A stretch of 35,808 bases of DNA from positions 1 to 35,808 of the forward strand of contig JAAZJL010000046.1 in NCBI GenBank assembly GCA_012800355.1, in the 5' to 3' direction. Source of the DNA: Erysipelotrichia bacterium (GTDB lineage Bacteria; Bacillota_I; Bacilli_A; Erysipelotrichales; Erysipelotrichaceae). A program made the position numbers and the translations under genes. Of this stretch, positions 13,852 through 29,653 are shown in pieces. The notes under the pieces are model-generated. The model was not told the origin of the DNA. It did not search any database and worked only from the letters and a program-made list of their open reading frames with translations. How positions within the stretch are numbered: position 1 is the first letter of the stretch; every line of letters starts with the position of its first letter.

Positions 13852-14538
13852 CTAACATTCATATCCTAAAGAACGAATATATTCTCTTAAATAAGCGATG
13901 TTTTCCTCAATGGTGTATTCTGGATTAAAGGCAGTTTTTCGTCCTAGAACAAGAATTGAAGCTCCCGCATTCAATAATTGTTCAATATCTTGATAACCTA
14001 CTGAACCATCAACAGCTATATCGATTTCAAAATAACCTGCTTCATCCAGTTTTTTTCTTAAATTACGAATTTTATTCAACATCTGTTGATTTACTTCTGG
14101 TTCATCTACTCCCATATCTCTTATATAAAGATTAACAATTTTAATATAAGGTAATAATTCATCTATTACGCATAATGGGGTTCCTGGATACAGTGAAACT
14201 GCTGTTTCATTACCTTTCTCGATAGCTAATTTTAATAGTCTAGTTGTTTCTAAAGTAGTTTCAGGATGAATGTTTATAATATTTCCCTTACTCTCATTTA
14301 AAATAGTATCAATAATTAACAAGGGTTTCTCTAATATTAAATGAATATCCAAAGGAATATCTACTAAATCATTTAGTGGTTTTATAACTGCTGGACTCAT
14401 TAAAGAAGTGCCTAACATTTGAGGATCAGTAATATCAAAATGTAAGTATTCAACTCCAGCTTTCTTTAAAGCCAGTACATCATGTTGTAAATTTAGTAAG
14501 TCTGCTCTTTCTAAAGATGGAGATAATTTAATCTTCAT
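13852..14538 (-). CDS. Rpe-like sugar-phosphate 3-epimerase, second copy
   Basis: The 228-residue protein belongs to the ribulose-phosphate 3-epimerase family (TIM barrel, divalent metal). Metal ligands fit: H and D in YLHFDITD, H in LDIHLI and D in AVDGSVG. The usual phosphate-binding loop NPGFGGQ is replaced by RDMGVDEPEVNQQ, so the substrate may not be ribulose-5-phosphate; AlsE-type hexulose-phosphate epimerase is an alternative. The start is ATG 14538, one base after the preceding gene's stop, with GAGG about 14 bases upstream; an in-frame ATG at 14559 lacks a ribosome site. It is the last gene of the nine-gene operon and ends near the bidirectional terminator. Confidence 0.85.
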   Translation of the reverse strand: MKIKLSPSLERADLLNLQHDVLALKKAGVEYLHFDITDPQMLGTSLMSPAVIKPLNDLVDIPLDIHLILEKPLLIIDTILNESKGNIINIHPETTLETTRLLKLAIEKGNETAVSLYPGTPLCVIDELLPYIKIVNLYIRDMGVDEPEVNQQMLNKIRNLRKKLDEAGYFEIDIAVDGSVGYQDIEQLLNAGASILVLGRKTAFNPEYTIEENIAYLREYIRSLGYEC

Positions 14539-14539
14539 A

Positions 14540-15211
14540 CTATTGTCCCAAAGCCTCATTTAGTAACTTAACTTGCTTATCAAACTGAGTTCCAGCAGTA
14601 AATAATGTTTTAGTACCACACACCAAAATGTTAGCACCATATTTTTTAAAAATTGGAGCAGTTGTAAAATTAATATTACCATCAACTGAAATTTGACAAT
14701 GATTATTTCCAACTCTTTTCATCATTTCTTTGACACCTTCAATTTTACGGCCAATAATTTCAGGATAGTTATGACGTGGGCCAGCACCTGCATTTCCTTG
14801 AATTAGTGTAACTAAATCTACAAGTTCAGCAACATATTCAATTGAGTCTAACCCTGTTCCCATATTAACGACCACACCACACTTGCATTTTTCTTTAATT
14901 TTCACAAGATAATTTGAATAATGATCGCTACTTTCTACTTGTAAAGAAACAATGTCATTCTCATCTAACCAAGGCAATATCTTTTCAACTATTTCATCTG
15001 GATCACGAACCATTATATGAATATCAATTGGTATTTTAGTAATATCTTTAATTTGCTTTAGCAAATCTATTGGTAACATTATTGTATTGGTAAATGTCGT
15101 ATCACAAATATCATAGTGAATGTAATCTATGTTATTTTTTTCAAACTTACGAATTTCATCCTCCATATGCAGAAAGTCTGCACAAGCTAAAGATGGTGCA
15201 ATTTTAATCAT
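14540..15211 (-). CDS. Rpe-like sugar-phosphate 3-epimerase, first copy
   Basis: This 223-residue member of the ribulose-phosphate 3-epimerase family starts behind GGAGGAAA. Metal-site residues are seen in YIHYDICD (H, D), IDIHIM (H) and SVDGNI (D). The phosphate loop reads IQGNAGAGPRH in place of NPGFGGQ, so binding is altered but may still be functional. It is clearly diverged from the neighbouring second copy, so the pair is an old duplication or two acquisitions. In the cluster it would interconvert C3 epimers such as ribulose- and xylulose-5-phosphate, feeding the transketolase; a hexulose phosphate is possible. Confidence 0.87.
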   Translation of the reverse strand: MIKIAPSLACADFLHMEDEIRKFEKNNIDYIHYDICDTTFTNTIMLPIDLLKQIKDITKIPIDIHIMVRDPDEIVEKILPWLDENDIVSLQVESSDHYSNYLVKIKEKCKCGVVVNMGTGLDSIEYVAELVDLVTLIQGNAGAGPRHNYPEIIGRKIEGVKEMMKRVGNNHCQISVDGNINFTTAPIFKKYGANILVCGTKTLFTAGTQFDKQVKLLNEALGQ

Positions 15212-15229
15212 GATTATTTCCTCCTTCTA

Positions 15230-15781
15230 TTATTCTAAATTAGCGTGACGAATACGAATAAATTTATCAACTTCCTCGTTGCCTAACCTGCCGGTCTGAT
15301 ATATTTTAACAATTAAAGCATCACAAAAAATTAGTAATGATTGCTCAAATGTTGAACCACTACTTTGAATTTTTTCTTCGTCAATAATACGGTTAAATAC
15401 CACCACATTATCAGCTTGTTTTCCAATAGTAGATTGTGGATTAGAAGTAATAACACTAATTCTTGCGTTATTTTCTTTAGCTACAGCACAATAACTTTTA
15501 AGATTTTTGGTTTCTCCGCTATTAGTTCCCAAAATTAATAAATCACCTTCTCTTATAGCAGGAGTAGTGGTATCACCAACAACATAAGAATTAAAACCAA
15601 ACTGCATCAGCCTCATTGCCAAAGACCTCATCATTAGTAAAGATCTTCCAGCTCCTCCAATGAAGATTTTTTTACTTTTAAAAATCTCCTCTATTAAGCC
15701 ATCAATATCATTTTCGTTGATTCCAGCACAAGTTTGTTTAAGTTGCTCTAATATCTTATTGTAAATGTCTTCAAATTTCAT
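15230..15781 (-). CDS. hxlB: 6-phospho-3-hexuloisomerase
   Basis: HxlB (PHI) is a SIS-domain isomerase that converts arabino-3-hexulose-6-phosphate to fructose-6-phosphate in the ribulose monophosphate pathway. The 183-residue length is typical. The SIS core shows IFIGGAGRSLLMMRSLAMRL, LILGTNSGETKNL and SVITSNPQSTIGKQAD, then the PHI-type GSTFEQSLLIFCDALI. It lies 5 bases after hxlA, the partner enzyme, and this adjacency is the strongest evidence for the RuMP reaction pair. The pair can run forwards (formaldehyde fixation) or backwards (making ribulose-5-phosphate from fructose-6-phosphate). Direction cannot be read from sequence. Confidence 0.92.
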   Translation of the reverse strand: MKFEDIYNKILEQLKQTCAGINENDIDGLIEEIFKSKKIFIGGAGRSLLMMRSLAMRLMQFGFNSYVVGDTTTPAIREGDLLILGTNSGETKNLKSYCAVAKENNARISVITSNPQSTIGKQADNVVVFNRIIDEEKIQSSGSTFEQSLLIFCDALIVKIYQTGRLGNEEVDKFIRIRHANLE

Positions 15782-15786
15782 AAACT

Positions 15787-16419
15787 CTAACCTTCTTTAA
15801 TCAAATTATACATTTTCTTACATGTTTCAACATAGTCATCAGCTTTATGGATGGCACTTCCAACAATAATAACATCTGGTTGCTCTTTCATAATAGTATC
15901 TAGAGTGGTAAAATTAATACCTCCTGCAACAGAGACCTTAGCATTTTTAACAATCTTTCTAATTCTTCTAAGCTCATCTATTGGATTATTTTTATCTGAT
16001 TGTACATCACTAGCAGTATGAACACATATGTAATCAACACCTAATTCATCTAAATATTTAGCTGTAGTTTCTACATCACTAATACCAATCAAGTCAACCA
16101 ACAATTCTTTTCCTGCTGCCTTTGTCGCTTCTAAGCAACCTTTGATTGTAGCAACATCAGCACAAGCACATACTGTGACAATACTAGCTCCAGCATTTAA
16201 AGCATACTCAGCTTCTAATTTTCCACCATCCATAATTTTGGTATCTGAAAGAATTTTTTTGTCTGGATATTTTTCACTAAAGTATCTAACTGGTTTTTGT
16301 CCATCCATTATAATCATTGGTGTTCCAACTTCAACAATATCAACATAATCCTTAATCTTCGATAATCTTTCATCCATCTCTTCAATTGACATTACATCAA
16401 ATGCTACTTGTAATTTCAT
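15787..16419 (-). CDS. hxlA: 3-hexulose-6-phosphate synthase
   Basis: HxlA (HPS) condenses formaldehyde with ribulose-5-phosphate, reversibly. The 210-residue TIM barrel belongs to the orotidine-decarboxylase superfamily: LQVAFDVMS, the metal site DTKIMDGG, TVCACADVATIKG, LLVDLIGISD, CVHTASD and SVAGGI. The ketogulonate-phosphate decarboxylase UlaD is a close relative, and the PTS genes here are Ula-like. However, VDLIGI, AGGI and the immediately following hxlB favour HPS. A good AAGGAG precedes the ATG. It sits in an operon with transketolase-linked sugar enzymes that could regenerate ribulose-5-phosphate. Confidence 0.88.
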   Translation of the reverse strand: MKLQVAFDVMSIEEMDERLSKIKDYVDIVEVGTPMIIMDGQKPVRYFSEKYPDKKILSDTKIMDGGKLEAEYALNAGASIVTVCACADVATIKGCLEATKAAGKELLVDLIGISDVETTAKYLDELGVDYICVHTASDVQSDKNNPIDELRRIRKIVKNAKVSVAGGINFTTLDTIMKEQPDVIIVGSAIHKADDYVETCKKMYNLIKEG

Positions 16420-16432
16420 TTTAAATTTCTCC

Positions 16433-17233
16433 TTACTTTAATAAATTTTCAATCTCTGCTTCATATTCTTCAGGATGATCTAAATATCTGAAAATATCTG
16501 GATCTTCTGCAAATTGAGCAAAGACTGATTTTCCTTCAATTATACCTAATTTTTCATCATAACTAGGTTTTACAACCTTCAGTTGTGGTAAATTATTATA
16601 ATTAGCATTTTGTATTGCTATTAAAATATCATTTTCCTTTAAAATGTAATAACTAAAACCATGTTTTTTAGTTATTGGATCGTAAAACAATGGTGTGTTT
16701 TTAGCTGCTAAATTATAAAAAGCCATAGGTTCATCACCAATATTGATTGCACAATGGGCATACCAAGCAGGGACAACAAGTTTTTCGCCAGTTTCCAATA
16801 TTACTAACTTGACATCGTCTACTTTTAATTCCTCTTCACTATCAAAGTTAGTTGACTTTTGAAGAATAAAAGCTGCTTTTCCTTGTAAAATTTCATACAC
16901 TTCAGGATAAGGCAAAACATGTCCTTTACTAACACCATGATAATGCCCAGAATTCTTTCGACATTCTCCATTCATTGTTCCACGATTAATAACTGTGATA
17001 CCATTAGCAAAATCACGTTTTTCGTATTCTTCTTTTTCTTCTTCATTGTGATAAATTCCACTTACAAAAGCATAATTCCAACTTTGATCTTCTTCACTTA
17101 AATGCTTTAACAATAACGGGTTCATTTCGATACTTTTTTTATGTTTTACTGGACCAGTTAAGTATTCACGATTAAATGTAAATCCACTTTCATCAACATA
17201 AAAATCAAAATCTTTAGTTTTAATATGTTCCAT
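16433..17233 (-). CDS. Cupin-type glucose-6-phosphate isomerase
   Basis: This 266-residue protein fits the cupin phosphoglucose isomerase family first known from euryarchaea, unrelated to the usual SIS-type Pgi. Metal ligands are H97 and H99 in SGHYHG, E111 in PEVYEIL and H160 in VPAWYAHCAIN. The family usually has about 190 residues; the extra length lies before the cupin core (first ~85 residues) and in a C-terminal tail from about 200. It would interconvert glucose-6- and fructose-6-phosphate, or a related aldose/ketose pair. It sits between deoC and hxlA with short gaps, clearly inside the operon. Confidence 0.85.
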   Translation of the reverse strand: MEHIKTKDFDFYVDESGFTFNREYLTGPVKHKKSIEMNPLLLKHLSEEDQSWNYAFVSGIYHNEEEKEEYEKRDFANGITVINRGTMNGECRKNSGHYHGVSKGHVLPYPEVYEILQGKAAFILQKSTNFDSEEELKVDDVKLVILETGEKLVVPAWYAHCAINIGDEPMAFYNLAAKNTPLFYDPITKKHGFSYYILKENDILIAIQNANYNNLPQLKVVKPSYDEKLGIIEGKSVFAQFAEDPDIFRYLDHPEEYEAEIENLLK

Positions 17234-17253: not shown

Positions 17254-17946
17254 TTAAAGTTTTTTATTACTTTCCAACATTTTTTTATAGTCTTCAATAA
17301 TTTTCACACTGGCAGAAGTTCCGATTCTTTCACATCCAGCATCTAAAAAAGCCAATACATCCTCGATTGTCCTAATTCCTCCAGATGCTTTAACCTTGAC
17401 ATCATTCCCAACCACTGATTTCATTAATTTAACATCATTTAAATCAGCACCACCAGTACCAAATCCAGTAGATGTTTTAATAAATGTTGGACGAACTCTT
17501 CTAGCAATCTTAGCTAATTCTACAATTTCTTCCTTGGTTAGATAGCAGTTTTCAAATATTACTTTGCTAATAACTCCATTCTGATTGCAGATATCTACAA
17601 TTTGACGCATCTCTTCTTCAATATAACTGTAATTCTTATCTTTTAATTCTGTAAGATTCACTACATAATCAATTTCATGAGCGCCATTAGCAATTGCATT
17701 TTTGGTTTCAAAAACTTTTACTTCAACAGTTGTCTGACCCAATGGAAAACTTACAGCAGCTCCAACATGGATGTCTTTCCCTTTTAAATATTTTGCACAT
17801 CTTTTTGTTTGCCCTGAGTTTATAGCTACCATTGCAAAGCCATACTTAACTGCTTCATCACATAATTTACTCATATCGGCATCACTTGCAAATGCCTTAG
17901 CATTAGTATGATCTATCATACCTGCTAACTTTTCAACACTAATCAT
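17254..17946 (-). CDS. deoC: Deoxyribose-phosphate aldolase (DeoC-type)
   Basis: DeoC is a class I aldolase that splits 2-deoxyribose-5-phosphate into acetaldehyde and glyceraldehyde-3-phosphate. The 230-residue TIM barrel keeps the key residues: Asp in EIDYVVNL, the Schiff-base lysine in FIKTSTGFG, and the second lysine in [14 protein letters not shown] lies 10 bases before the ATG. No nucleoside genes (deoA, deoB, pupG) surround it. It is embedded among RuMP and pentose-phosphate enzymes instead, so a different aldehyde acceptor or donor is possible. The assignment to the family is firm; the in vivo substrate is inference. Confidence 0.93.
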
Positions 17947-17976: not shown

Positions 17977-19635
17977 TTATTCAGATAACATTGTTTCTCT
18001 GACAATTTCAACAGCTTTCTGATATTCAGACATGAAATACTTAAAGGTGTTTACCACACATTCACACTTTACAAAATCACTAGGTTCCATGACTCCTTCA
18101 CTGTAAACTTGAACAAATAGTGGATTTTTAAGTAATTCATTTATTTTCCATTCTTCGACTGGTACATCATAATAATTCTTGATTTCAACAGCACAATCAA
18201 CAAAACGCTTTTGCCATTTAACAGGAATAGTCATTGCTACATCTGCACCAATAAACTCTGACCAATGCAGTTGCGAACGATAATAGGCAATCAAAGGACG
18301 AGTTGAATAATTTCTTTCGCCAATCATTTTTATAATCTTTTTGGCAGTTGCAACTCCTGCCCAATTTAAAGCATCTGGATGTATAACTAACTTATTGTTT
18401 TCAGCATTAGCTTTGATAGAATCATCAATCATTCCTGGCAATAATGCCACCATTGGATTAAGTCTGCTATTATCTAAGCCCTCTTTACTACGACGTTTAA
18501 GCGCTCTTTCAATAGCTTCACAAACAGCAATAGCCTGATCAACTGCAAAACACTGGGTCCCCATACAGCTAATTCCATCATAAGTTGCTTGTTCAATTGC
18601 TTTAATACCATTTTCGGTGCAAGGAATTTTTATCTGTAAGTTAGGACCACAAGCATGTACCTCGTGAGCCATCTGTAATATTCTTTCATAGTTATTATAT
18701 TCATATATTGATGACTGAACACAAAAACGTCCATTTTTTGGATTTCCCTGTTCCCACAAAGGAAGCATTATTTGACTACGAATCTTAGCCATTTCCAAAG
18801 TCCAAGCCCAAGTTAATTCCATTTCATTATATTCTGGATATTGTTGATGAAGTTTTGAAATTATCTTTTTGTGATAATCCCTAGATTCATTTATCATCAT
18901 TTTCGCAACCCATGTAGGACTAGTAGTAATCCCTAAAGAACCTTGTTGTAGTCCATAGTGATGATCTTCAATAGCAAAAGAATCTGTCCATAAATCAGTC
19001 TGTGGAAATTTTTTATGCATTTCTAATAGCTTGTTCATCTTTACTCCTTTTAAGTGTTCACTTATATCCTTTTTTATTGGCATTAAATCAATATTATTAA
19101 AATCGCTAAAATCTATTAAATAATCTTTACCAATACATATATTGTAATTTTTATCTTTTAAACTGTCCCAAAACTCTTTCTGATTCAAAGTTATTCTTTT
19201 GATTTTACATATTTTATCTTTATTGTAACAATCGGTAAGATGACCCAGATGACGATTATTATCAGCGTTACGATTTAAGTGTCTATCATAAATAACCTTT
19301 TTATCACCATACAAACATACTGTAATAGCTTTGTAGTTATAACAATCAACTAACTGTTTAAGTTTTAAACGGTGATATTGATACCATGGATAATCAGTAA
19401 TTATGTTAATTCCATGTTCCATTGCTTTTTGTAAACGAAGATAGAATTCTTCTAAAGCATTTGTGCACAATGAATCTTTTTCAACACGATTTTTAAAACC
19501 ATAAAGATCCCAAAATTCTTCCTTAACTTTATCGTAGGAGAATAGCCGTAAGTTATATTCGTCAGCAAATTGTTTAGCTGTATACGATTTTCCTGTACCT
19601 GGAGCACCTGTTACAAAAACAATTAATCCCATCAT
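17977..19635 (-). CDS. Fusion of a P-loop kinase-like domain and a transaldolase-like domain
   Basis: The 552-residue frame holds two proteins. Residues 1 to about 195 are a P-loop kinase-like domain with Walker A GAPGTGKS (K16), a strand ending ITDYP near 78-83, and an arginine-rich lid at 118-130 (RHLNRNADNNRHLGH). From M200, about 353 residues form a transaldolase-family TIM barrel: GITTSPTWV, QIKIP with the likely Schiff-base lysine K336, ALLPGMIDD and WAGVATAKK. Two common transaldolase residues look changed: TNP is TSP, and the expected glutamate before the lysine is in FCVQSS. A strong AAAAGGAG stands 5 bases before the M200 codon, so the transaldolase may also be made alone. The full-length start at 19635 has only a weak ribosome site. 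Confidence 0.88.
   Translation of the reverse strand: MMGLIVFVTGAPGTGKSYTAKQFADEYNLRLFSYDKVKEEFWDLYGFKNRVEKDSLCTNALEEFYLRLQKAMEHGINIITDYPWYQYHRLKLKQLVDCYNYKAITVCLYGDKKVIYDRHLNRNADNNRHLGHLTDCYNKDKICKIKRITLNQKEFWDSLKDKNYNICIGKDYLIDFSDFNNIDLMPIKKDISEHLKGVKMNKLLEMHKKFPQTDLWTDSFAIEDHHYGLQQGSLGITTSPTWVAKMMINESRDYHKKIISKLHQQYPEYNEMELTWAWTLEMAKIRSQIMLPLWEQGNPKNGRFCVQSSIYEYNNYERILQMAHEVHACGPNLQIKIPCTENGIKAIEQATYDGISCMGTQCFAVDQAIAVCEAIERALKRRSKEGLDNSRLNPMVALLPGMIDDSIKANAENNKLVIHPDALNWAGVATAKKIIKMIGERNYSTRPLIAYYRSQLHWSEFIGADVAMTIPVKWQKRFVDCAVEIKNYYDVPVEEWKINELLKNPLFVQVYSEGVMEPSDFVKCECVVNTFKYFMSEYQKAVEIVRETMLSE
19036..19051 (-). promoter_or_regulatory. Internal ribosome binding site at the kinase/transaldolase junction
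   Basis: On the minus strand AAAAGGAG-TAAAG-ATG places a near-ideal ribosome site 5 bases before the in-frame M200 codon, exactly where the transaldolase homology starts. It is stronger than the site at the full-length start. It suggests internal initiation, or a recent fusion of two once-separate genes. Confidence 0.7.
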
Positions 19636-19643
19636 ACTATCTT

Positions 19644-20462
19644 TTAATAAGACTCCATATATGACTTAGCTACATTCTTAATACAACTTCTTAAAGTCGT
19701 GATATAATGACGAATATCTAATTTACCATCCCATTTTTTTCCATATTCAGAAACAGTTGATAGATATGCTGCTCTGATATCAGTTCCAACATTTATTTTG
19801 GATATACCCATAGAAATAGCTTTTTTTATATCACATAATGGAATGCCAGTTCCACCATGTAAAACTAAAGGAATATTACTTTTATCACTTAATGTTTTCA
19901 ACAAGTCAAAACGAAGTTTTGGTTCCCCTTTATAAAAACCATGTTTATTGCCAATTGACACAGCAATGGAATCTACATCAGTTAAATTAATAAACTTTTC
20001 CATTTGTTCTGGATTAGTTAAAACTTCAATATCATTTTTGACATTTTCTTCATTTCCACTGATTAATCCCAATTCACCTTCAACAAAGACACCTTTGCCA
20101 TGACAATATTTCACTATTTTTTTAGTGTTAGCTACATTTTCCTCAAATGAAAGAGATGAACCATCATACATAACATAATCAAAACCAGCATTTACACAAT
20201 CATACAGCAAGTCGATATCAGTACAATGGTCTAAATGAGAAATCACCTGTACACCATACTTTTTTTCCATCAGTTTACATAACTTAACAAAGATATCAAT
20301 TCCCATGAACTTACAACATGACATTGAAGCCATTAAAATTACTGGTTTATTCAATTCAGCTGCTCCACTAACAATAGCTTCCATGTCATCAAAAGTATTA
20401 ACATTAAATGCCCCAATGGCTTTACCTTTTTGGCGGTATTCTAGCAAAATATTTTTTTTCAT
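19644..20462 (-). CDS. Class II ketose-bisphosphate aldolase
   Basis: This 272-residue zinc aldolase belongs to the fructose/tagatose-bisphosphate aldolase class II family. The catalytic aspartate and zinc histidine are D78 and H79 in SHLDHC. Further sites are MYDGSSLSFEENV, EGELGLISG (E130 region), H174 in GNKHGFY, and H202 in LVLHGGTGI; KINVGTD binds phosphate. It is slightly shorter than GatY/FbaA (about 285 residues). The exact ketose bisphosphate cannot be told from sequence. It lies 11 bases after the SIS gene and 8 before the kinase-transaldolase, so it is part of the same operon, with weak ribosome sites suggesting coupling. Confidence 0.92.
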   Translation of the reverse strand: MKKNILLEYRQKGKAIGAFNVNTFDDMEAIVSGAAELNKPVILMASMSCCKFMGIDIFVKLCKLMEKKYGVQVISHLDHCTDIDLLYDCVNAGFDYVMYDGSSLSFEENVANTKKIVKYCHGKGVFVEGELGLISGNEENVKNDIEVLTNPEQMEKFINLTDVDSIAVSIGNKHGFYKGEPKLRFDLLKTLSDKSNIPLVLHGGTGIPLCDIKKAISMGISKINVGTDIRAAYLSTVSEYGKKWDGKLDIRHYITTLRSCIKNVAKSYMESY

Positions 20463-20473
20463 ACTTTAACTAC

Positions 20474-21043
20474 TTAACCTAAATCAGCTTCAATTACTTT
20501 AACAATAGAGTGAATAATAAATAAATGTAGTGCTTCAGCTATAATCAAATCATCAGTATTGACTGGACACCAGCAGTCTACCATACCTTTCAATTTTCCT
20601 CCATTTTTTCCAGTAAAAACAACTGTTATAAGCCCTTTCTTTTTAGCTTCTTCAACAGCAAGAATGATATTTTTACTATTACCAGAAGTCGAAAATGCCC
20701 ACAAAATGTCTCCTTTTTTACCTAAAGCATTAACTTGTCTTTCAAAGACATGGTCATAACCATAATCATTGGAAATAGCTGTTAACACCGAAGCATCTGT
20801 CAAAGCAATAGCAGGATAACCATTACGATCCCAATTAATCATGTGGCTTACAAAATCATTTGTTATATGAGAAGCAGTTGATGCACTTCCTCCATTACCA
20901 CACAATAAAACTTTCCCGCCATTTCGAATAACTTCTTCAGTCAAGACAGCACACTTTTGGTAAGTCAAAAAAATTTCCTCATTGGTGCTATTAACCGCAT
21001 CAATAAGCAAATTATAATCATCTTTTATAATTGTTTTATTCAT
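20474..21043 (-). CDS. SIS-domain sugar-phosphate isomerase, GmhA-like
   Basis: The 189-residue protein is closest to phosphoheptose isomerase GmhA: LLCGNGGSASTASHITNDF, PAIALTDASVLTAISNDYGYDHVFERQV, FSTSGNSKNI and FTGKNGGKLK. GmhA converts sedoheptulose-7-phosphate to a manno-heptose-7-phosphate. Here the catalytic Glu position (FAAEL in GmhA) reads ITNDF, an Asp, and the QExH motif near the C-terminus reads EALH, so specificity may differ. No other heptose synthesis genes are nearby. A strong AAGGAGG precedes the ATG and it is the first gene of the nine-gene operon, whose enzymes handle C5-C7 phosphates. Confidence 0.88.
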   Translation of the reverse strand: MNKTIIKDDYNLLIDAVNSTNEEIFLTYQKCAVLTEEVIRNGGKVLLCGNGGSASTASHITNDFVSHMINWDRNGYPAIALTDASVLTAISNDYGYDHVFERQVNALGKKGDILWAFSTSGNSKNIILAVEEAKKKGLITVVFTGKNGGKLKGMVDCWCPVNTDDLIIAEALHLFIIHSIVKVIEADLG

Positions 21044-21112: not shown

Positions 21113-21853
21113 TTAGTTATGACTTAAATACTCAATAATAATACGAGCAATGATTTCAAGTGGTAACCTTGAAGCACCACAAAAATCAAATAAACCATCA
21201 ATAGCAGTATTATAGCCAACAATTGTAACATCTGAAAGTTCTTCAAGAACTGTTCCTGATTTGCATATGCAAGTAACAATTGGAATACCCATCTTTCGAC
21301 AATCACGTTGAGCAATTTCAAATTCTGGAGTCGTATTATGAGCAGTAAAAGTAATCACCATATCATCTTTGTCTACTAGTTTGACTAGTCGTCTAATAAC
21401 TTCAGAATCGGTTGTTAGAAAGCAATTATATTTCATTAACTGTAGACGGTGAACAAAACACTCCGCTACAAATGATGTATCTCCTCTAGCTATTACATAA
21501 ATCTGTTTAGATTTTTTTATATATTCAACAATTTTCATGATATCGCTTATCTTTAAATTATCAATTGTATTTGTACATTCTTGATAAATATTTGAAAGAA
21601 CTTTATTAACAGCATAGTGTTCTTTACGATGAGATAGTTTTCTTGCCAAGTATAATCTTAAATCTGGAATGCCAGTAAAACCACATTTTCTAATTGCCCT
21701 AGAAACAGTCGCAATAGAAGTATAAGAAAACTCAGCCAATTCTGTAATTGACTGCTCAATTGCTGTATCTCCATGATTATTTATATAATCAACAACTTCT
21801 TGTTCAGCAGATGTTAAGTTTAGTTGTGTTTTTTCATCAAGTTCTATTAACAT
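21113..21853 (-). CDS. RpiR-family transcriptional regulator
   Basis: The 246-residue protein joins an N-terminal RpiR-type helix-turn-helix (LTSAEQEVVDYI, then SYTSIATVSRAIRKCGF as recognition region) to a C-terminal SIS sugar-phosphate-sensing domain (KQIYVIARGDTSFVAE and MVITFTAHN). The SIS signature is loose: SGxS-like turns read RGDTS and AHNTT. The start at 21853 is chosen because GGGGGAAC lies 5 bases upstream; an in-frame ATG at 21871 lacks a ribosome site. It lies between the transketolase operon and the SIS operon on the same strand, so it very likely controls the cluster, responding to a sugar phosphate made within it. Confidence 0.92.
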   Translation of the reverse strand: MLIELDEKTQLNLTSAEQEVVDYINNHGDTAIEQSITELAEFSYTSIATVSRAIRKCGFTGIPDLRLYLARKLSHRKEHYAVNKVLSNIYQECTNTIDNLKISDIMKIVEYIKKSKQIYVIARGDTSFVAECFVHRLQLMKYNCFLTTDSEVIRRLVKLVDKDDMVITFTAHNTTPEFEIAQRDCRKMGIPIVTCICKSGTVLEELSDVTIVGYNTAIDGLFDFCGASRLPLEIIARIIIEYLSHN

Positions 21854-21963
21854 ATGTTCCCCCATTATCATTCTATCTAAATTCTACCATAAAAACGCGA
21901 AAATCTCCATCGCTAATACAGTTTTCAAAACCATCACAACTAAATAATTTTAATTTCATGTTT

Positions 21964-21987
21964 AAAAATTCTGTTATCATCTAACAG
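21964..21987 (-). terminator. Terminator after the transketolase operon
   Basis: On the minus strand CTGTTA-GATGA-TAACAG is followed by AATTTTT. The stem is short (6 bp) and the T-run interrupted, so read-through into the RpiR gene is possible. Confidence 0.55.
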
Positions 21988-22009
21988 CATTTTACTTTTA
22001 TAAAATAAT

Positions 22010-22975
22010 TTACTCTCTATTTAATAATTTTATAGTTTCCTCGACAACATCAGCAGCTGTTAGATGGAAAGTCTTTTTAAGATAATCGACACTACCGACC
22101 TGACCATATAAATCTCTTATACCAATGTTTTTTACTTTTACTCTTTGAGGACAGTTGACCAATACATCATTAACAGCAGAACCTAAACCACCATAAACTG
22201 ATGCGTTTTCGAAAGTTATTACTGCTTTTTTACCTTTTACTTCATTTTTTATCAATTCTTCATCCAATGGTTTAATAGTAAACATATCAATAACTTCAAC
22301 TGATATTCCTTTTTCTTGCAACATTTCAGCAGCATCTAAAGCATCACTAACTAGCTCACCTGCAGCAATAATTAATATATCATTGCCAGTCTTCAAAACA
22401 TTTCCTTTACCTAATTTAAATCTTGAATCATCAGTATAAACTTTTCTAACAGCTTTACGATTAGCACGTAAATAGTGAATTCCCTTTAATTTTAAAAATT
22501 CTTTAACTACCCAAGCAATCTGCACATCATCGCATGCATCAACAATTACTGCATCAGGTAAGGTACGCATTATAGCAATATCTTCAAATGTTGTATGAGT
22601 TCCTCCATTATGAGCTGAAGTATATCCTGGATCAGATCCATATATATTAATAGTATTTTTTGCATATCCACCTGAAAGATAAACCTGATCAAAAGCACGG
22701 CGAACAACAAAAGGTGAGAATGTATGAACAAAAGGTTTATAACCTAACATACTCATACCAGCAGCAACACCCATCATATTTGCCTCAGCAATACCACATT
22801 CAACAAACTGTTGTGGATGACTTGATTTAATTTTGGAAAAACCACTAGCTCCACCTAAATCAGCTTCCAGAGCTACCACCATTTCATCTTCATTCATTGC
22901 CTGTTGTAAAGTTTTTACAACTGTTAAATTCATAGCAGCTCCTATTTTATTTCTATCATCAACTAATTTATACAT
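22010..22975 (-). CDS. Transketolase, C-terminal subunit (split type)
   Basis: This 321-residue subunit carries the pyrimidine-binding and C-terminal domains of transketolase. The catalytic glutamate that activates thiamine diphosphate is in ECGIAEANMMGVAAGM. Further segments are FVHTFSPFVVRRAFDQVYL and SAHNGGTHTTFEDIAIMR (substrate/cofactor loop), then the C-terminal domain from about 190 (ILIIAAGELVSDAL). It must pair with the N-terminal subunit encoded just upstream, which it overlaps by 8 bases, giving equal expression. Together they transfer two-carbon units between sugar phosphates. Split transketolases are known from archaea and from carbohydrate clusters of many bacteria. Confidence 0.94.
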   Translation of the reverse strand: MYKLVDDRNKIGAAMNLTVVKTLQQAMNEDEMVVALEADLGGASGFSKIKSSHPQQFVECGIAEANMMGVAAGMSMLGYKPFVHTFSPFVVRRAFDQVYLSGGYAKNTINIYGSDPGYTSAHNGGTHTTFEDIAIMRTLPDAVIVDACDDVQIAWVVKEFLKLKGIHYLRANRKAVRKVYTDDSRFKLGKGNVLKTGNDILIIAAGELVSDALDAAEMLQEKGISVEVIDMFTIKPLDEELIKNEVKGKKAVITFENASVYGGLGSAVNDVLVNCPQRVKVKNIGIRDLYGQVGSVDYLKKTFHLTAADVVEETIKLLNRE

Positions 22976-23828
22976 TTTTCAAACTCTCCTTAACAAATTT
23001 CTCAAGCTTGGCAATTGCTTCATTGGCAGCATCTATATTTTCTTGGTTATTAAATTTAACTGAATGGTTGTCAATTAGATTTTCAAAATAAGTAATTCCT
23101 TGTCCTTTAATAGTATCTAAAACAATTGAAACAGCACTATTGTTTACTTGTTTGCATTCATCAATAGCTTTAGAAATAGCTTCTTCATCATCACCTTTAA
23201 CTTTTATGGTATAGAAACCAAAAGCTTCCATTTTTTTCTTAATATCAAATGGATTAATAACATCTATGGTATAGCCATCTAATTGGCGTTTATTTTCATC
23301 AATAATTACAATGCAATTGTTAAGTTTATAATTAGCAATAAACTGAAATGCTTCCCAGCATTGTCCTTCATTTAACTCACCATCTCCAACTATTAAATAA
23401 ACATATCGATTTTGATTTAATCTTTTCATAGCCAATGCTATACCAGCTGCTACACTAGTACCTTGACCCAAAGAACCTGTTGTCATATCAACTCCTGGAG
23501 TCTTGGTGCGGTCTGGATGAGATGGTAAATTAGTTCCTCCTTCATTTAATGTCATAAGCATTTCTTTATCAAAAAAACCTACATTTGCCAAAGTTGCATA
23601 CCATGCAGGACCGCTATGGCCTTTACTTATAACAACCATATCCCTATTATCATCGTTAGGATTAGTAGCATCATATCTTAGATGTTTTCCATAAAGTACA
23701 CTAAGTAATTCAACAATAGATAGCGAACCACCCAAATGACCATAACCACAATGTACCAACATCTTCATAACATCCAACCTAATGTTAGCAGACAATAGTT
23801 TTAGTTTCATTAATTCATGTTTTTCCAT
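22968..23828 (-). CDS. Transketolase, N-terminal subunit (split type)
   Basis: The 286-residue subunit holds the thiamine diphosphate pyrophosphate-binding domain. The metal/TPP motif is GDGELNEGQCWEAFQFIANYKLNN. Substrate and cofactor histidines lie in HCGYGHLGGSLS and SKGHSGPAWYATL. SLGQGTSVAAGIALAMKR and DENKRQLDGYT are typical. Its end overlaps the C-terminal subunit gene by 8 bases. It follows the ManA-like gene by 17 bases in the EIIA-led operon. As an accessory, substrate-linked transketolase it may act on non-standard ketose phosphates; whether another, full-length enzyme exists in the genome cannot be seen here. Confidence 0.94.
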   Translation of the reverse strand: MEKHELMKLKLLSANIRLDVMKMLVHCGYGHLGGSLSIVELLSVLYGKHLRYDATNPNDDNRDMVVISKGHSGPAWYATLANVGFFDKEMLMTLNEGGTNLPSHPDRTKTPGVDMTTGSLGQGTSVAAGIALAMKRLNQNRYVYLIVGDGELNEGQCWEAFQFIANYKLNNCIVIIDENKRQLDGYTIDVINPFDIKKKMEAFGFYTIKVKGDDEEAISKAIDECKQVNNSAVSIVLDTIKGQGITYFENLIDNHSVKFNNQENIDAANEAIAKLEKFVKESLKNV

Positions 23829-23845
23829 AATTAATATCTCCTCTT

Positions 23846-24781
23846 TTATTTATCTCGATATGATCCTACTAATATTGTAAAATCACCTTCTAATTTCAAT
23901 TTTCCTAATTTGCATGGTACAAAAAAGGTCTCGCCTTTCTTTATAGGCGTTCCATCTATATGACCAGAGCCATCTGCAATAAAGTAATAAGCAAATTCAT
24001 TTAAGCTAAAATAACCTATACCATTATTAACGACTTTATAAGCGCTAAACTCTCCAGGAATATCATGATACTTAAAAATCATTGCATCACCATCAGAAGC
24101 AATTTGTGGTTGAACAAATGGATTTTCATTATCTGGGCAGATTAACACATCCAAAGTCTTTTCCAAATCCAATTGACGTTTATTACCATTAGCATCTACT
24201 CTATCAAAATCATAAACACGGTAAGTAATATCAGCGTTACGCGACAATTCTAAAATAACTGTACCTTCCCAAGTAGTATGTATGCGACCAGCTGGAATAT
24301 ATGCAAAATCCCCTTTTTCTACAGGATATTTTCTTAGAAGTTTTTCCCACTCTCCATCTAATGCCATTTTTTTAAACTGCTCTTTATTTAAAGCATTATG
24401 TCCATACATACCAATAGTTTTAGGTTCAGCATCCAAGAAAAAAACACACTCGGGTTTGCCAAGACAATTCTCTATTTCTCTAGCATATTTCTCGTTTGGA
24501 TGTAATTGTACCGAAGTACTTTGATTGCAGTCTGCCAAAAGAAACTTAATTGGAATGACTTCGGTTGAATGTGTTCCAAACAACTCATTATGCTGATTAT
24601 ATAATTCGCTTAATGTCATTTCTGTTCCTATAACCAAGTTATCTTCTTTTCCAGGCAATGATGAAGCAAGCCATCCTTCTCCTACTAAACCATTTCCACA
24701 ATCCATTCCATAAATATCACGAAATTTATGACCACCCCAAATTTTTTCTCGAAATTCGGGTTTCAATTTATATATACGCAT
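23846..24781 (-). CDS. Mannose-6-phosphate isomerase, class I (ManA-like)
   Basis: The 311-residue cupin enzyme matches short Bacillota ManA proteins (about 315 residues). Zinc ligands are in VQLHPNEKYA (Gln, His), KPECVFFL (Glu) and the later IPAGRIHTTW histidine. The N-terminus MRIYKLKPEFREKIWGGHKFRD is typical. The start at 24781 is chosen because AGAGGAG lies about 8 bases upstream; an in-frame ATG at 24805 has none. It would interconvert mannose-6- and fructose-6-phosphate or an analogous pair. It lies between the RmlD-like and transketolase genes in one operon. Confidence 0.9.
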   Translation of the reverse strand: MRIYKLKPEFREKIWGGHKFRDIYGMDCGNGLVGEGWLASSLPGKEDNLVIGTEMTLSELYNQHNELFGTHSTEVIPIKFLLADCNQSTSVQLHPNEKYAREIENCLGKPECVFFLDAEPKTIGMYGHNALNKEQFKKMALDGEWEKLLRKYPVEKGDFAYIPAGRIHTTWEGTVILELSRNADITYRVYDFDRVDANGNKRQLDLEKTLDVLICPDNENPFVQPQIASDGDAMIFKYHDIPGEFSAYKVVNNGIGYFSLNEFAYYFIADGSGHIDGTPIKKGETFFVPCKLGKLKLEGDFTILVGSYRDK

Positions 24782-24797
24782 TTTAATTACTCCTCTT

Positions 24798-25649
24798 TTA
24801 CTCAAAATAATTCAAGCATTCTTCCATTGCATCTTGCCAACTACGCATCTCAATGTTAAAGGCTTTTTTTATTAAAGATGTATCCAATACAACCTTCTTT
24901 TCTCTAGGTGCAAGTTTTACACCCATTAGTGTAGGTTTAATCCTTGTTCCATCAAACCCCATTTTTTCGGCAATATATTTAAAATAATCGTAGCGACTAG
25001 CTTCACCACTGTTTCCAACATTATATGTACCATAAGCATCAGTAATCATGATAATCTCTATGGCTTTTGCTACATCTACTGTATAAGTTGGATTGCTAAT
25101 TTGATCTGTAGTATATAGCAAATCACTCTCTCCATTTTCCAAACGTTTCTTCATCTTATATATCGGATTAGTCTCTTTACGTCCATTGTGACCAAATAAA
25201 AGCGGAACACGTATTATAAAACTGTGATTATTGTATATTTTAACTTCATTTTCAGCTAAATATTTACTGTGCCCATAAATGTTAACTGGATTAGTTATAT
25301 CAAATTCACAATATGGTCTATCAAGTGAACCATCAAAAACAGCAGCACTGCTTATGTGAACCATCTTTGATTTAATCGCGGCTGTTGTTACAGCTATATT
25401 ACGTGTTGCCAAAGTATTAATATTATAAGTTGTAAGTGGGTCTTTTTGAGCAACATCAACATCTTTTAATCCTGCACAATGAATGAAGATATCAGGCTTG
25501 TTTTTTTGAACAAATTGCTTGACTGCCTTGTAATCAGTCAAATCAACATCTTTTTGACCATATATTGGTATCACATCATAATTTCTTTTCAAAACTTCAT
25601 AAATGTCAGAACCCAACAGACCATTTACCCCATCTACAATTATCTTCAT
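24798..25649 (-). CDS. RmlD-like NAD(P)-dependent sugar reductase (extended SDR)
   Basis: This 283-residue protein has a Rossmann fold with the dinucleotide motif DGVNGLLGSD near residue 7. The RmlD-type LTDYKAVKQFVQKNKPDIFIHCAG follows, then the catalytic YGHSK (Tyr-x-x-x-Lys) and the SSAAVFDG serine region. The family includes dTDP-4-dehydrorhamnose reductase, but no rmlA, rmlB or rmlC is near. In this operon it more likely reduces or oxidises a different sugar derivative. A strong AGAAGGAG precedes the ATG. It is the only visible dehydrogenase-type enzyme in the sugar cluster, which makes it a clue to the substrate. Confidence 0.87.
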   Translation of the reverse strand: MKIIVDGVNGLLGSDIYEVLKRNYDVIPIYGQKDVDLTDYKAVKQFVQKNKPDIFIHCAGLKDVDVAQKDPLTTYNINTLATRNIAVTTAAIKSKMVHISSAAVFDGSLDRPYCEFDITNPVNIYGHSKYLAENEVKIYNNHSFIIRVPLLFGHNGRKETNPIYKMKKRLENGESDLLYTTDQISNPTYTVDVAKAIEIIMITDAYGTYNVGNSGEASRYDYFKYIAEKMGFDGTRIKPTLMGVKLAPREKKVVLDTSLIKKAFNIEMRSWQDAMEECLNYFE

Positions 25650-25709
25650 TCTTTTCTCCTTCTATTTGAATGTACTTTATTCGTTTTTTTCTTTTCCAAA
25701 AATAATAGT

Positions 25710-26432
25710 TTAAGATTCTTTACGTTTTTTAATAAATGAATAAATAAAACTAGCAATAATTGTCAAAACTATACCAATAGGAATTCCAAGTAAACTAAAC
25801 AATAATGCTTTCTTAATATCCCAATATTGTAAATAACCCCATAAAAAACAAAAATCAACCATAAAGACCGATAAAATAATCGTTAGTTTAGTATTAATAT
25901 CTTTCTTCAATTTATTGACTATTTTTTCAATAGCTTGTTGAACTTGTTGTTTATCGGAATAATATACTCTTTCTTTTGTTAATCCTTTTTTATATAATCT
26001 ATCAGCAAAAGACAGATTTTCAAATTTGGATACTGCTAAAGGAATGAAGTAAACATTATCTAAAAATACATTGGTAGCTTTTTTAACAATTTCATAAATA
26101 ATCCAACAAGCAGAAATCAAAACTATACTACGACCATTTAAAACTAAAGCATCTTCTCTTTTAAATACACCTGAAATACAAATAATAGCAATTAATAAAG
26201 CATTAGCAAACAAAACATAATGCAAAGGTTTCAAAAATTTAATGTTACTAATGTCAATTCCATTTGTAACAATGTTGGCACTAAATTCATTATCCAATTG
26301 TATATTTTCATTTCTAGCATATTTATCAAACTTATCATACTTTTTAGACCACTTTTCAGCCTCATTTTTTTTAACAGTTGATCTATTAGAACTGTCATCA
26401 ACATTTTTTATTTTATTCTTATTTTTTGACAT
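25710..26432 (-). CDS. Four-helix membrane protein with a charged N-terminal tail
   Basis: The 240-residue protein opens with about 60 hydrophilic, Lys/Asn/Asp-rich residues, so there is no signal peptide. Two membrane helices follow near 66-88 and 98-118. A cytosolic or external segment at about 120-180 contains RLYKKGLTKERVYYSDKQQVQQAIEK, and two more helices lie near 183-203 and 208-232, with a basic end KKRKES. I do not recognise a family. It begins 5 bases after the degenerate MBL-fold gene and lies 60 bases before the RmlD-like gene, so it belongs to the EIIA-led operon. Confidence 0.72.
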   Translation of the reverse strand: MSKNKNKIKNVDDSSNRSTVKKNEAEKWSKKYDKFDKYARNENIQLDNEFSANIVTNGIDISNIKFLKPLHYVLFANALLIAIICISGVFKREDALVLNGRSIVLISACWIIYEIVKKATNVFLDNVYFIPLAVSKFENLSFADRLYKKGLTKERVYYSDKQQVQQAIEKIVNKLKKDINTKLTIILSVFMVDFCFLWGYLQYWDIKKALLFSLLGIPIGIVLTIIASFIYSFIKKRKES

Positions 26433-26437
26433 AATTA

Positions 26438-27169
26438 CTATTTCTCCTTATAGGTATATTGAGTGGTATATTTAATTTTTTCACGATATGGTTCGCTAAC
26501 AGGGTCATTTAATATAAAATCAATAATCTTACTTTCATCTTTAAAATTCATTGGAAAAACAGCATCAACATTTAGATTTCTCATAAAATAATCAAATCCT
26601 TCAGCATACATATTTTGTTGTGCTGGATTAAGCACTAGAAAAGCTGCATTAATATTAATATCGCCTATTTTATCTACTTCTTTTTTAAAGTTTTTGGTGG
26701 CTATATTATTATCATAATCTGTTTTATTTGGCCAACTCCAATTGTTTAAATAACCGGCATGAAAAATAATTTTATCACCACATTGAACTAGATAAGCTAA
26801 AGAATTATTCGTATCTGTACAGTTATATGTCCAAATTTTAACCTCATTTAAAAGGTAATTTTTGTTAGGTTCAGCCCAAACAATGTTTTCTCTAGTCTCT
26901 TTTTCAAGAACATATTTAAAGAAAAATTTCATCTGCCATTTTTGACTAAACCTATCTTTAGCGACAATATAATGAACATTTTCTCTATTTGCGCCTAAGT
27001 GAAATACATCGGAGTTAAAATGGTCCGATGAGCAACTGTTAATAAATATATATATCGGTTTTCCCTTGGAAAACTTTGGCGTTGAGCCTGATATATAATT
27101 AAATAGAAATATTGCTTTTTTGGTTTCTATATAAAAACCAGATTGATATAAATAATAGATTTTAAACAT
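26438..27169 (-). CDS. MBL-fold protein with lost metal ligands
   Basis: This 243-residue protein keeps the outline of MBL-fold hydrolases: YYLYQSGFYIETKKAIFLFNYI at the start, the loop INSCSSDHFN (45-50), and DTNNSLAYLV then FHAGYLNNWSW (137-146). In catalytic relatives the first loop is HxHxDH and the second is HAGD. Here both first histidines are serine (S45, S47) and the later aspartate is tyrosine (Y140); D49, H50 and H137 remain. It is therefore probably not a normal metallo-hydrolase. It starts 9 bases after EIIA and is in one operon with it. A sensor or scaffold role is inference. Confidence 0.78.
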   Translation of the reverse strand: MFKIYYLYQSGFYIETKKAIFLFNYISGSTPKFSKGKPIYIFINSCSSDHFNSDVFHLGANRENVHYIVAKDRFSQKWQMKFFFKYVLEKETRENIVWAEPNKNYLLNEVKIWTYNCTDTNNSLAYLVQCGDKIIFHAGYLNNWSWPNKTDYDNNIATKNFKKEVDKIGDININAAFLVLNPAQQNMYAEGFDYFMRNLNVDAVFPMNFKDESKIIDFILNDPVSEPYREKIKYTTQYTYKEK

Positions 27170-27178
27170 AATAATTAA

Positions 27179-27631
27179 TTATAAAATATCGATTGAAGTA
27201 AACAAATCATATAATTCTTCTGCAGTCTGAGGATTCAATGCTTTTTTCATATTTTCATTATCACTTAAAATAATTGCGATTTGTTTAATTGCTTCCATAT
27301 GGTCATTTCCTTCTGAAGCTGCCATACCAATCAATAGATTAACGTCCTCTTCCTTTCCTTCAAATCTAAATGGCTCTTTTACATATGTCAACGATAACTG
27401 TGTCTCATTGACCCCATCATTAGATGATGCATGAAGTAGTGCAATACCTGGGCATAGTACAAAGTATGCATTAAATTTTAAGGCATTGGCAATAATTGCT
27501 TCCGTATATTCATGTGTAATAAAACCACCTTCAATTAGTTTTCTTGTACCTTTTATTATAGCATCTTTCCAGTCAGTAACCGACTCAATAATTTCCACAT
27601 TTTCAGGTTTTAAAATATCTTTTATATACAT
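27179..27631 (-). CDS. PTS EIIA, fructose/mannitol/ascorbate type
   Basis: EIIA passes phosphate from HPr to EIIB. The 150-residue protein belongs to the PTS EIIA type-2 family, and the phosphorylated histidine is H67 in LCPGIALLHAS. Its pairing with Ula-type EIIB and EIIC suggests a UlaC-like protein. The start at 27631 is chosen because GGTGGGAAAG lies just upstream; an in-frame ATG at 27643 lacks a ribosome site. A strong terminator and an inverted repeat separate it from EIIB, so it is transcribed independently and leads a seven-gene operon ending with transketolase. Confidence 0.92.
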   Translation of the reverse strand: MYIKDILKPENVEIIESVTDWKDAIIKGTRKLIEGGFITHEYTEAIIANALKFNAYFVLCPGIALLHASSNDGVNETQLSLTYVKEPFRFEGKEEDVNLLIGMAASEGNDHMEAIKQIAIILSDNENMKKALNPQTAEELYDLFTSIDIL

Positions 27632-27693
27632 CTTTCCCACCATATATTCGTTAGAATATATCCCCTTTCTTTAAAAATAATGAAATAAATTTT

Positions 27694-27733
27694 AGTCAAC
27701 TATTTCTAATAAAACAGTTAATTATAGTTGACT
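27694..27733. promoter_or_regulatory. Perfect 10-bp inverted repeat upstream of EIIA operon
   Basis: AGTCAACTAT (27694-27703) and ATAGTTGACT (27724-27733) are exact inverted copies, 20 bases apart. On the minus strand a TATAAT (27726-27721) overlaps one arm and TTGACT forms the end of the other. A dimeric regulator could bind here and block the promoter of the EIIA operon. The spacer length and lack of a T-run argue against a terminator. Confidence 0.55.
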
Positions 27734-27851
27734 TCATTATAAACTGAATTTTATAAATATTTTCTTTTTAATTATAATTTTCGTTATTTAAACAGTATAA
27801 TTTATTTAATTTCTGATAAAATTACATCATTAAAAATATGACATTCATAGC

Positions 27852-27884
27852 AAAAAACAGGAGAGAAATTAAAGTTTCTCTCCT
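27852..27884 (-). terminator. Terminator between EIIB and EIIA
   Basis: AGGAGAGAAA and TTTCTCTCCT (27859-27868 and 27875-27884) form a perfect 10-bp stem with a 6-base loop, followed on the minus strand by GTTTTTTG. It begins about 20 bases after the EIIB stop. Confidence 0.88.
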
Positions 27885-27903
27885 ACTTTTTTACTTTTTA
27901 TGC

Positions 27904-28197
27904 TTATGCATCAGGATTCTCATCGAAATACTGTTTAAGAACTTCGTAAATGTGATCCTTATTAATTAAATTGTGTATAGCTACAGTAGGAGCATATTGC
28001 TTAACCTGATCATACACATCTGCAGATACTACTAGTAGGTCAGCACATCCATTATATGTATCACCTAAAGATGAATGTTTTACAACAATGTCTGTTCTTC
28101 CCAGTTTTTCTAAAACTTTTTCAACGTTCATACTGAGAATTAATGATGAACCTAAACCAGCAGGACAAATACACATTATAGTATTTACTTTTGCCAT
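27904..28197 (-). CDS. PTS EIIB, ascorbate/Ula type
   Basis: The 97-residue EIIB takes phosphate from EIIA on its active cysteine and gives it to the incoming sugar. The site is CPAGLGSS with C11. The family length is about 95-100 residues, and KHSSLGDTYNGCADLLVVS in the middle matches the lactose/Ula-type EIIB fold. It lies 5 bases after EIIC. The transcript probably stops at the hairpin at 27884 before reaching EIIA. Ula-like sequence alone does not prove ascorbate transport, because the family also includes transporters of unknown substrate. Confidence 0.93.
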   Translation of the reverse strand: MAKVNTIMCICPAGLGSSLILSMNVEKVLEKLGRTDIVVKHSSLGDTYNGCADLLVVSADVYDQVKQYAPTVAIHNLINKDHIYEVLKQYFDENPDA

Positions 28198-28202
28198 ATT
28201 AT

Positions 28203-29588
28203 TTATTCAACTTCTTTCTTTCCGTCTTTTTTTCTGTGGCCAAAGACTAGTACTAGTACAAATAATGCAATGATTACATAGAATACAGCATTACCAATAA
28301 ACTTATTCAAAGTATTTAAAATAACGCCAATTAATACAGTGTCAGCACCACCAAATGTAGTACCACTTACTTCTAGACCACCTAGCCAGATTAAGAATCC
28401 AGGAGCAAAGTGAGTGAAGAAGCCGATAATTAATGTAGCTAAGATAACACCTCTTTTACCTCCATTTGGATTAGCAACGCAGGCATAAGTTGCGCCATAA
28501 TAGAAAGCATTAATTACGTTTGGCAATATAACTGGAAATGCAGGTACAGCATTATGTAATGCAATATTAACGAAGAACGCTAATATGAATGCTACAGTAC
28601 AACACAAGAAACCTACTAATGTTCCTGTTGGATAATAAGGATAAACAATAGGAATATCTAGTGAAGCAACAGCATTTGGGATAAACTTTTCAGAAATACC
28701 TCTAAAGCTAGGAACAATTTCACCAACAACTAGACGAACACCAGCCATTAGGATAAAGACACCAGTAGTAAACTGTAAAGCATAGTTGATAGAACCAATG
28801 ATAAAGTTAACTCCTTCACCAAAAGCTTTTTCTACTAAGCCAGGTACAGCAATTAAACATACTACAGAAACCACAAAGTATAAAGCAAACATAACTAGAG
28901 ACAAAGAAACGTTCCAGTCTTTTAAGAAAGCCATACCTTCTGGAATTTTAGCATCTTCAATACTGTCTTTAGGATCTCCAACTAAAGCAGCAAATCTTGC
29001 AGCTACCCAATATAAAACAGATCCTGTATGAGCAATAGAAATTTCTTGGCTACCTGTTATCTTACAGACATCCTTATGAATTAAAGATGGGAATATTGCC
29101 ATGTACATACCTGTAACTAAACCACCTGCAACGATTATCTGCCATAATGGCAAACCAGCAGCTGAGAATACAAATGCACAACAAGTTGAAACCCACATCA
29201 TTTCATGACCTGTCAGGTAGATAAAGCTAAATCTTGTAAATTTTGCAATGACAATATTAATTGCCATAGCTGCAATAATAATTCCAGATAAAGCAGTTCC
29301 AAATTGTCCAGCAGCAGCACCATAGCAAGCTTCATTTGAAGGAACTACCCCAGTAAAACCGAAAGCAGTTGCAGTCATTGTATTTAATGGAATAATAGAT
29401 CCAACAATGAATGTACTTGAACCACTAATCAAATTGAAGCCTAGCAATGTTTTAATTATGCTAGTTATAATTTCAGTTGTTTTCTTTTTTCTTACCATCA
29501 TACCTGCCATTATAAACAATGAAATTAAAATGGAAGCATTTGATAATAACTGAATAAGAAAGTCCAACAAAAACACAAAAAAACCCAT
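28203..29588 (-). CDS. PTS EIIC permease, ascorbate (Ula/SgaT) family
   Basis: This 461-residue permease has about ten to eleven membrane helices and family segments GSSTFIVGSIIPLNT, GEIVPSFRGISEKFIPNA, YPYYPTGTLVGF and LIWLGGLEV. It imports and, with EIIB, phosphorylates the sugar. The start at 29588 is chosen because GGGAGGTG lies about 9 bases upstream and MGFFVFLLDFL opens directly into the first helix; an in-frame ATG at 29627 lies near the likely transcription start. It heads the sugar cluster behind a near-consensus promoter. No UlaG lactonase or UlaE/UlaF epimerase is found, so the substrate is probably not ascorbate. Confidence 0.92.
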   Translation of the reverse strand: MGFFVFLLDFLIQLLSNASILISLFIMAGMMVRKKKTTEIITSIIKTLLGFNLISGSSTFIVGSIIPLNTMTATAFGFTGVVPSNEACYGAAAGQFGTALSGIIIAAMAINIVIAKFTRFSFIYLTGHEMMWVSTCCAFVFSAAGLPLWQIIVAGGLVTGMYMAIFPSLIHKDVCKITGSQEISIAHTGSVLYWVAARFAALVGDPKDSIEDAKIPEGMAFLKDWNVSLSLVMFALYFVVSVVCLIAVPGLVEKAFGEGVNFIIGSINYALQFTTGVFILMAGVRLVVGEIVPSFRGISEKFIPNAVASLDIPIVYPYYPTGTLVGFLCCTVAFILAFFVNIALHNAVPAFPVILPNVINAFYYGATYACVANPNGGKRGVILATLIIGFFTHFAPGFLIWLGGLEVSGTTFGGADTVLIGVILNTLNKFIGNAVFYVIIALFVLVLVFGHRKKDGKKEVE

Positions 29589-29625
29589 ATATATTTGCAC
29601 CTCCCTATTTATATAAGTTAATTTC

Positions 29626-29653
29626 ATTATAATTTATTTAGAATATTAGTCAA
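29626..29653 (-). promoter_or_regulatory. Sigma-A promoter of PTS EIIC-EIIB
   Basis: On the minus strand TTGACT (29653-29648) and TATAAT (29631-29626) are spaced by 16 bases, both near consensus. Transcription would start near 29619, giving a leader of about 30 bases with the GGGAGG ribosome site. Confidence 0.75.

Follow-up and report, generated by a model that had tools for sequence, protein, structure and literature searches.

Whereas the PTS delivers a monophosphate, a ketose-bisphosphate aldolase needs a bisphosphate, so that a kinase would be expected to act between the two. Such a phosphorylation step is known from other enzymes, since the pyrophosphate-dependent PFK of Clostridium thermocellum converts sedoheptulose 7-phosphate to the bisphosphate (PMC10339645). 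The covalent joining of a transaldolase to another sugar-phosphate enzyme likewise has a precedent in the bifunctional transaldolase/phosphoglucose isomerase represented by the NCBIfam model NF007080. For a fusion between a kinase and a transaldolase no paper was found in the open-licence literature. Such a merger thus seems to be unreported, in agreement with the original prediction, which had described the pairing as unfamiliar.

The DNA analysed here (the window) is a stretch of 35,808 nucleotides, which represents one entire contig; the draft genome comprises 1.48 Mb in 99 contigs, with a completeness of 81%. The kinase–transaldolase gene had been correctly placed at positions 17977–19635, but it lies on the minus and not on the plus strand. 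On the minus strand, 552 codons run from an ATG to the stop with zero internal stops, whereas the plus strand carries many stops across the same interval. As predicted, a kinase-like domain with the motif GAPGTGKS is found in frame with a transaldolase in one uninterrupted reading frame, and both parts are recognized by Pfam: TAL_FSA matches residues 218–482 (E 2.3e-26), while AAA_33, AAA_18 and Zeta_toxin match residues 5–127 weakly (E about 1e-5). The junction is minimal. Without an added linker, the predicted C-terminal helix of the kinase leads directly into the methionine with which the transaldolase starts in relatives. A structure model of the full-length protein, for which the alignment comprised the window and L031 sequences only, is poor (pLDDT 45, pTM 0.39). 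The fused gene and its surroundings, all on the minus strand, consist of the following features:

21113–21871, minus strand: RpiR-family sugar-phosphate-sensing regulator
20474–21043, minus strand: GmhA-like sugar-phosphate isomerase (SIS)
19644–20462, minus strand: class II ketose-bisphosphate aldolase (FBAII), lying upstream of the fusion at a distance of 8 nt, a neighbour kept in relatives
17977–19635, minus strand: fused kinase–transaldolase gene, single open reading frame, 552 amino acids
19039–19635, minus strand: P-loop kinase half, residues 1–199, assigned by Walker A motif, Pfam and fold
19036–19051, minus strand: internal Shine-Dalgarno sequence AAAAGGAG (19044–19051) and ATG (19036–19038) at codon 200
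17977–19038, minus strand: transaldolase-family half, residues 200–552, Schiff-base lysine at residue 336
17254–17946, minus strand: DeoC-family aldolase, directly downstream of the fusion
16433–17233, minus strand: cupin-type phosphoglucose isomerase
15787–16419, minus strand: HxlA
15230–15781, minus strand: HxlB
14540–15211 and 13852–14559, minus strand: two ribulose-phosphate 3-epimerase-like genes

From 21043 to 13852 the genes, including the fusion, form a tight run on the same strand, in which GmhA, FBAII, the fusion and DeoC are separated by gaps of 11, 8 and 30 nt. Curated cut-offs are passed by GmhA, FBAII, DeoC, the cupin phosphoglucose isomerase, HxlA and HxlB; for FBAII, the ketose-bisphosphate aldolase model TIGR00167 scores 250 bits against a cut-off of 215.6. 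Further upstream, a split transketolase, PMI and an EIIC-GAT PTS are encoded on the same strand. The segments 13852–17233 and 21113–29627 (minus strand) are parts of a long sugar-phosphate cluster. A 243-residue reading frame that separates PTS from sugar genes (26438–27169, minus strand) has no Pfam match at E 0.001. HxlA and HxlB, which exceed their NCBIfam cut-offs as hexulose-phosphate synthase and isomerase, occur in a draft genome in which no sign of methylotrophy was seen. Since the genome additionally encodes a second, FSA-type transaldolase and has two genes of the PFK family, neither fused activity is uniquely needed, which makes the fusion an additional enzyme specific to a pathway.

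Both halves are also combined in a single 562-codon reading frame in the metagenome-assembled genome Erysipelotrichaceae bacterium Tb.RUG.113 (G003, the same record as L031). The two fused proteins are 57% identical over their whole length, with 68% identity in the transaldolase and 37% in the kinase half, and the G003 protein keeps all kinase motifs as well as the transaldolase lysine. Given 552 codons, two families matched in frame and this recurrence in another species, the reading frame is not a product of chance. A DeoC-family gene follows the fusion in the same order as in the window, and G003 has no adjoining aldolase upstream. Among the 273 genomes of the family Erysipelotrichaceae, the fusion is confined to these two, both from gut or rumen bacteria; most relatives possess just one of the two halves.

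The kinase half contains a Walker A motif of the GxxGxGK[ST] type (GAPGTGKS, residues 10–17). Taken in isolation it scores above the Pfam cut-offs for AAA_33 (27.4 bits versus 27) and Zeta_toxin (25.4 versus 22.3), AAA_33 being the better match, and ten out of ten relatives match the AAA_33 family at E 0.01 or better. Gly10, Gly15, Lys16, Asp35, Lys38, Glu39, Asp111, Arg118, Arg122, His129 and Asp175 are invariant in the window and these ten relatives. A structure model of this half (pLDDT 70.5, residues 118–163 poor) shows the P-loop small-molecule kinase fold. The best match in a fold search was 2rhm, a putative kinase of uncharacterised function (Z 15.2, r.m.s.d. 3.3, 158 aligned residues, 20% identity), followed by PSTK, polynucleotide, adenylate and gluconate-like kinases; matches obtained with Foldseek include the 6-phosphofructo-2-kinase PFKFB. 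Because many P-loop kinases match about equally, no substrate can be read from the fold. The half is none of the named sugar kinases. The originally assigned term kinase is nevertheless backed by fold and kept motifs as a putative activity.

Gene context is more specific. Close relatives of the kinase half are mostly encoded directly downstream of a ketose-bisphosphate aldolase, and several, among them representatives from the Erysipelotrichaceae, reside in PTS operons. FBAII immediately precedes the kinase in G000, G239, G248, G026 and G048, on plasmids of Enterococcus raffinosus and E. faecalis and on a Listeria-labelled contig; in G026, G048, both plasmids and the Listeria-labelled contig, genes for PTS IIA, IIB and IIC stand before the FBAII–kinase pair. 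In Enterococcus, this kinase family is annotated just as ATP-binding protein. By analogy with this arrangement, the kinase half may phosphorylate a ketose phosphate a second time and thereby feed the aldolase, which we regard as quite possible, if somewhat less than probable. Viral contigs yielded one weak kinase relative and no transaldolase. In a phage collection, the Listeria-labelled matches fall in the record L095 (OR846802.1), which bears the label Listeria phage; its genes are those of a bacterial PTS–aldolase–kinase operon, so it is probably host DNA.

The transaldolase half matches PF00923 (Transaldolase/FSA) with 93.2 bits against a curated cut-off of 27, while it stays below every curated NCBIfam transaldolase cut-off. 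When the half is aligned with TalB of E. coli (hhalign 98.6%, E 4.8e-16), the Schiff-base lysine (TalB Lys132) falls on residue 336, corresponding to Lys137 of the half, and this lysine is invariant in 24 aligned rows. Equivalents of TalB Asp17, Thr156 and Arg228 are likewise kept. The classical TalB-like active site is not present in full, as Asn35, Glu96, Ser176, Arg181 and Ser226 are replaced by Ser, Gln, Ala, Met and Tyr, respectively. Glutamine at the position of Glu96 is common to 24 of 24 rows and is also the aligned residue in FsaA. The other four changes occur throughout the seven subfamily rows, of which two are fused, two lie beside a kinase gene and three lack a kinase; they are absent from all 15 rows of a PTS-linked sister group, which displays Asn, Thr, Arg and Ala at the places of Asn35, Ser176, Arg181 and Ser226 and is located in PTS operons, often together with a class II aldolase. 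TalB Arg181 is known as a phosphate ligand. The substitutions suggest that the phosphate site has changed, the placement around Arg181 being based on sequence alignment only, and with Met for Arg181 and Ser for Asn35 throughout the subfamily the substrate may be non-standard. Transaldolase is accordingly used here as a family name, and the three-carbon transfer that had been ascribed to this half is not established for so divergent a subfamily.

Five bases before the ATG of codon 200 lies AAAAGGAG, with a duplex energy of −8.8 kcal/mol. At the same place, the G003 fusion carries GGAGG (−9.3), and the stand-alone transaldolase genes of G239 and G248 reach −9.2 and −9.5 at their starts. The first start of the fusion, located 8 nt behind the aldolase gene, reaches only −1.5. 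For comparison, the window contains 255 internal ATGs that are in frame, about 7% of which reach −8, and several of these are probably genuine starts of genes whose listed frames extend too far. Strong Shine-Dalgarno sequences before internal ATGs suggest true starts inside the listed frames 28203–29627 (codon 14), 1860–2981 (codon 14), 23846–24805 (codon 9) and 2959–4149 (codon 6). Met200 corresponds to the conserved first methionine of the transaldolase in relatives, so codon 200 is an ancestral-looking transaldolase start. Since a strong Shine-Dalgarno sequence is found there in both fused genes, production of free transaldolase in addition to the fused protein is plausible, although the internal start could also be a relic.

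The likely starting point of the fusion is seen in G239 and G248, which belong to another genus. Here the halves are separate adjacent genes in different frames with an overlap of 8 nt, sharing ATGAGTAA; GATGAGTAA forms the end of the kinase gene and includes the ATG of the transaldolase. The operon order is PMI–DeoC–GmhA–FBAII–kinase–transaldolase. As the separate overlapping genes follow the class II aldolase in the same order, the fusion looks derived from an ordinary operon pair of neighbouring genes, and a small indel at the overlap would join them. For one such event or two, the evidence points both ways. In G002, which belongs to the window's own genus, DeoC comes after the kinase with no transaldolase in between. 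In the kinase tree, where the window's half sits on a long branch, G003 groups with G002; a clade of window and G003 without G002 is rejected (p 0.002), a clade of all three is not (p 0.11), and two separate fusions are slightly favoured. In the transaldolase tree, the two fused sequences group together with weak support (72/58). On the other hand, the shared order kinase–transaldolase–DeoC favours a single fusion with later loss of the transaldolase in G002. There (L060, 8838–9488), the kinase gene closes with a stop codon of its own and a hairpin resembling a terminator, and no transaldolase precedes DeoC, a state that possibly arose by transaldolase loss after fusion.

Combining these observations, we propose, at a little short of an even chance, a bifunctional protein derived from overlapping operon genes, in which the kinase makes the bisphosphate for FBAII and the transaldolase shares the ketose-phosphate pool. 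PTS or isomerase would supply a ketose phosphate, the kinase half would add the second phosphate, and the class II aldolase encoded just upstream would split the resulting ketose bisphosphate. Drawing on the same pool, the transaldolase half would swap or split off a dihydroxyacetone unit via Lys336. Sedoheptulose 7-phosphate is a candidate for this pool because GmhA, transketolase and transaldolase all meet there. The fusion would fix equal amounts and closeness of both activities, and the retained internal start would add free transaldolase. Several observations weigh against this scheme: the other PFK-family and transaldolase genes of the genome, the lack of specificity in the kinase fold matches, the G003 fusion with no adjoining aldolase, the G002 kinase that has no transaldolase, the long branch of the window's kinase half and the possibility that the internal start is a relic. 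The substrate class of the kinase is the weakest step. Going further, though unlikely in its entirety, the P-loop half may belong to a new ketose-phosphate kinase family that replaces PfkA/LacC-type enzymes in PTS–aldolase operons, with the fused transaldolase retuned by loss of Arg181 to other phosphate demands, giving the pool two exits in one polypeptide.

Other explanations differ in how much of this they dispute. The draft assembly consists of 99 contigs and some relatives carry the genes separately, which would fit two genes joined by a sequencing or assembly artefact. A frameshift or missing stop had indeed been named as a possible refutation; however, the separately assembled G003 carries the same fusion with both halves in frame at 57% identity. 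This reading is rejected as extremely improbable, and the fusion is genuine, of which we are nearly certain. Separate genes in relatives, the other anticipated objection, are real in G239 and G248 but do not extend to G003, and this objection thus applies in part. A genuine fusion might still be a neutral accident, in which an indel removed the stop between overlapping genes, the internal start continues to produce transaldolase and the fused form has no special role. Its rarity (two of 273 genomes), the small indel that separates G239 and G248 from the fused state, an internal Shine-Dalgarno sequence better than the gene's own and the slight preference of the kinase tree for two fusions are all compatible with this. 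Against it, both fused genes have stayed open, kinase motifs included, at 57% identity to each other, and the weak first start could be served by translation coupled to the aldolase. We consider an accident rather unlikely.

Alternatively, the P-loop half could be a nucleotide-dependent regulator or a nucleotide, RNA or protein kinase (Zeta-toxin, polynucleotide-kinase or PSTK-like) attached for control. The Pfam matches to Zeta_toxin and AAA_33 and the high rank of PSTK and polynucleotide kinase in the fold list agree with such a role, but the relatives reside in sugar operons beside an aldolase, and no antitoxin or RNA-repair gene was detected among the neighbours of the fusion, which are sugar-phosphate enzymes. 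A non-sugar role as a whole therefore appears improbable, and the Zeta-toxin and RNA-repair versions were rejected.

With the preferred reading of a bifunctional sugar-phosphate enzyme, two enzyme classes without a known fusion are now joined, and fusion partner and operon neighbours together allow a concrete hypothesis on what this family of P-loop kinases phosphorylates. If true, sugar PTS operons that seemingly lack a second kinase do have one. The protein is a new pairing of known domain classes, explained by its operon origin. Comparison with NF007080 shows that its partner domain, an isomerase, lies C-terminal to the transaldolase, whereas the kinase of the window protein is N-terminal, and the window's transaldolase part matches that model with 48.6 bits, far under the cut-off of 712. 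AAA_33-type kinases (2rhm, gluconate-kinase-like enzymes and the PFKFB domain) have the Walker A motif and core fold in common with the kinase half, which differs from them by an identity of at most 20% and by its link to ketose-bisphosphate aldolase operons. With the divergent group of about 350-residue transaldolase family proteins within PF00923, the second half shares the TAL_FSA match, the Schiff-base lysine and the equivalents of Asp17, Thr156 and Arg228; what sets it apart from PF00923 enzymes is the fusion to a kinase and the subfamily-wide substitutions at five TalB sites.
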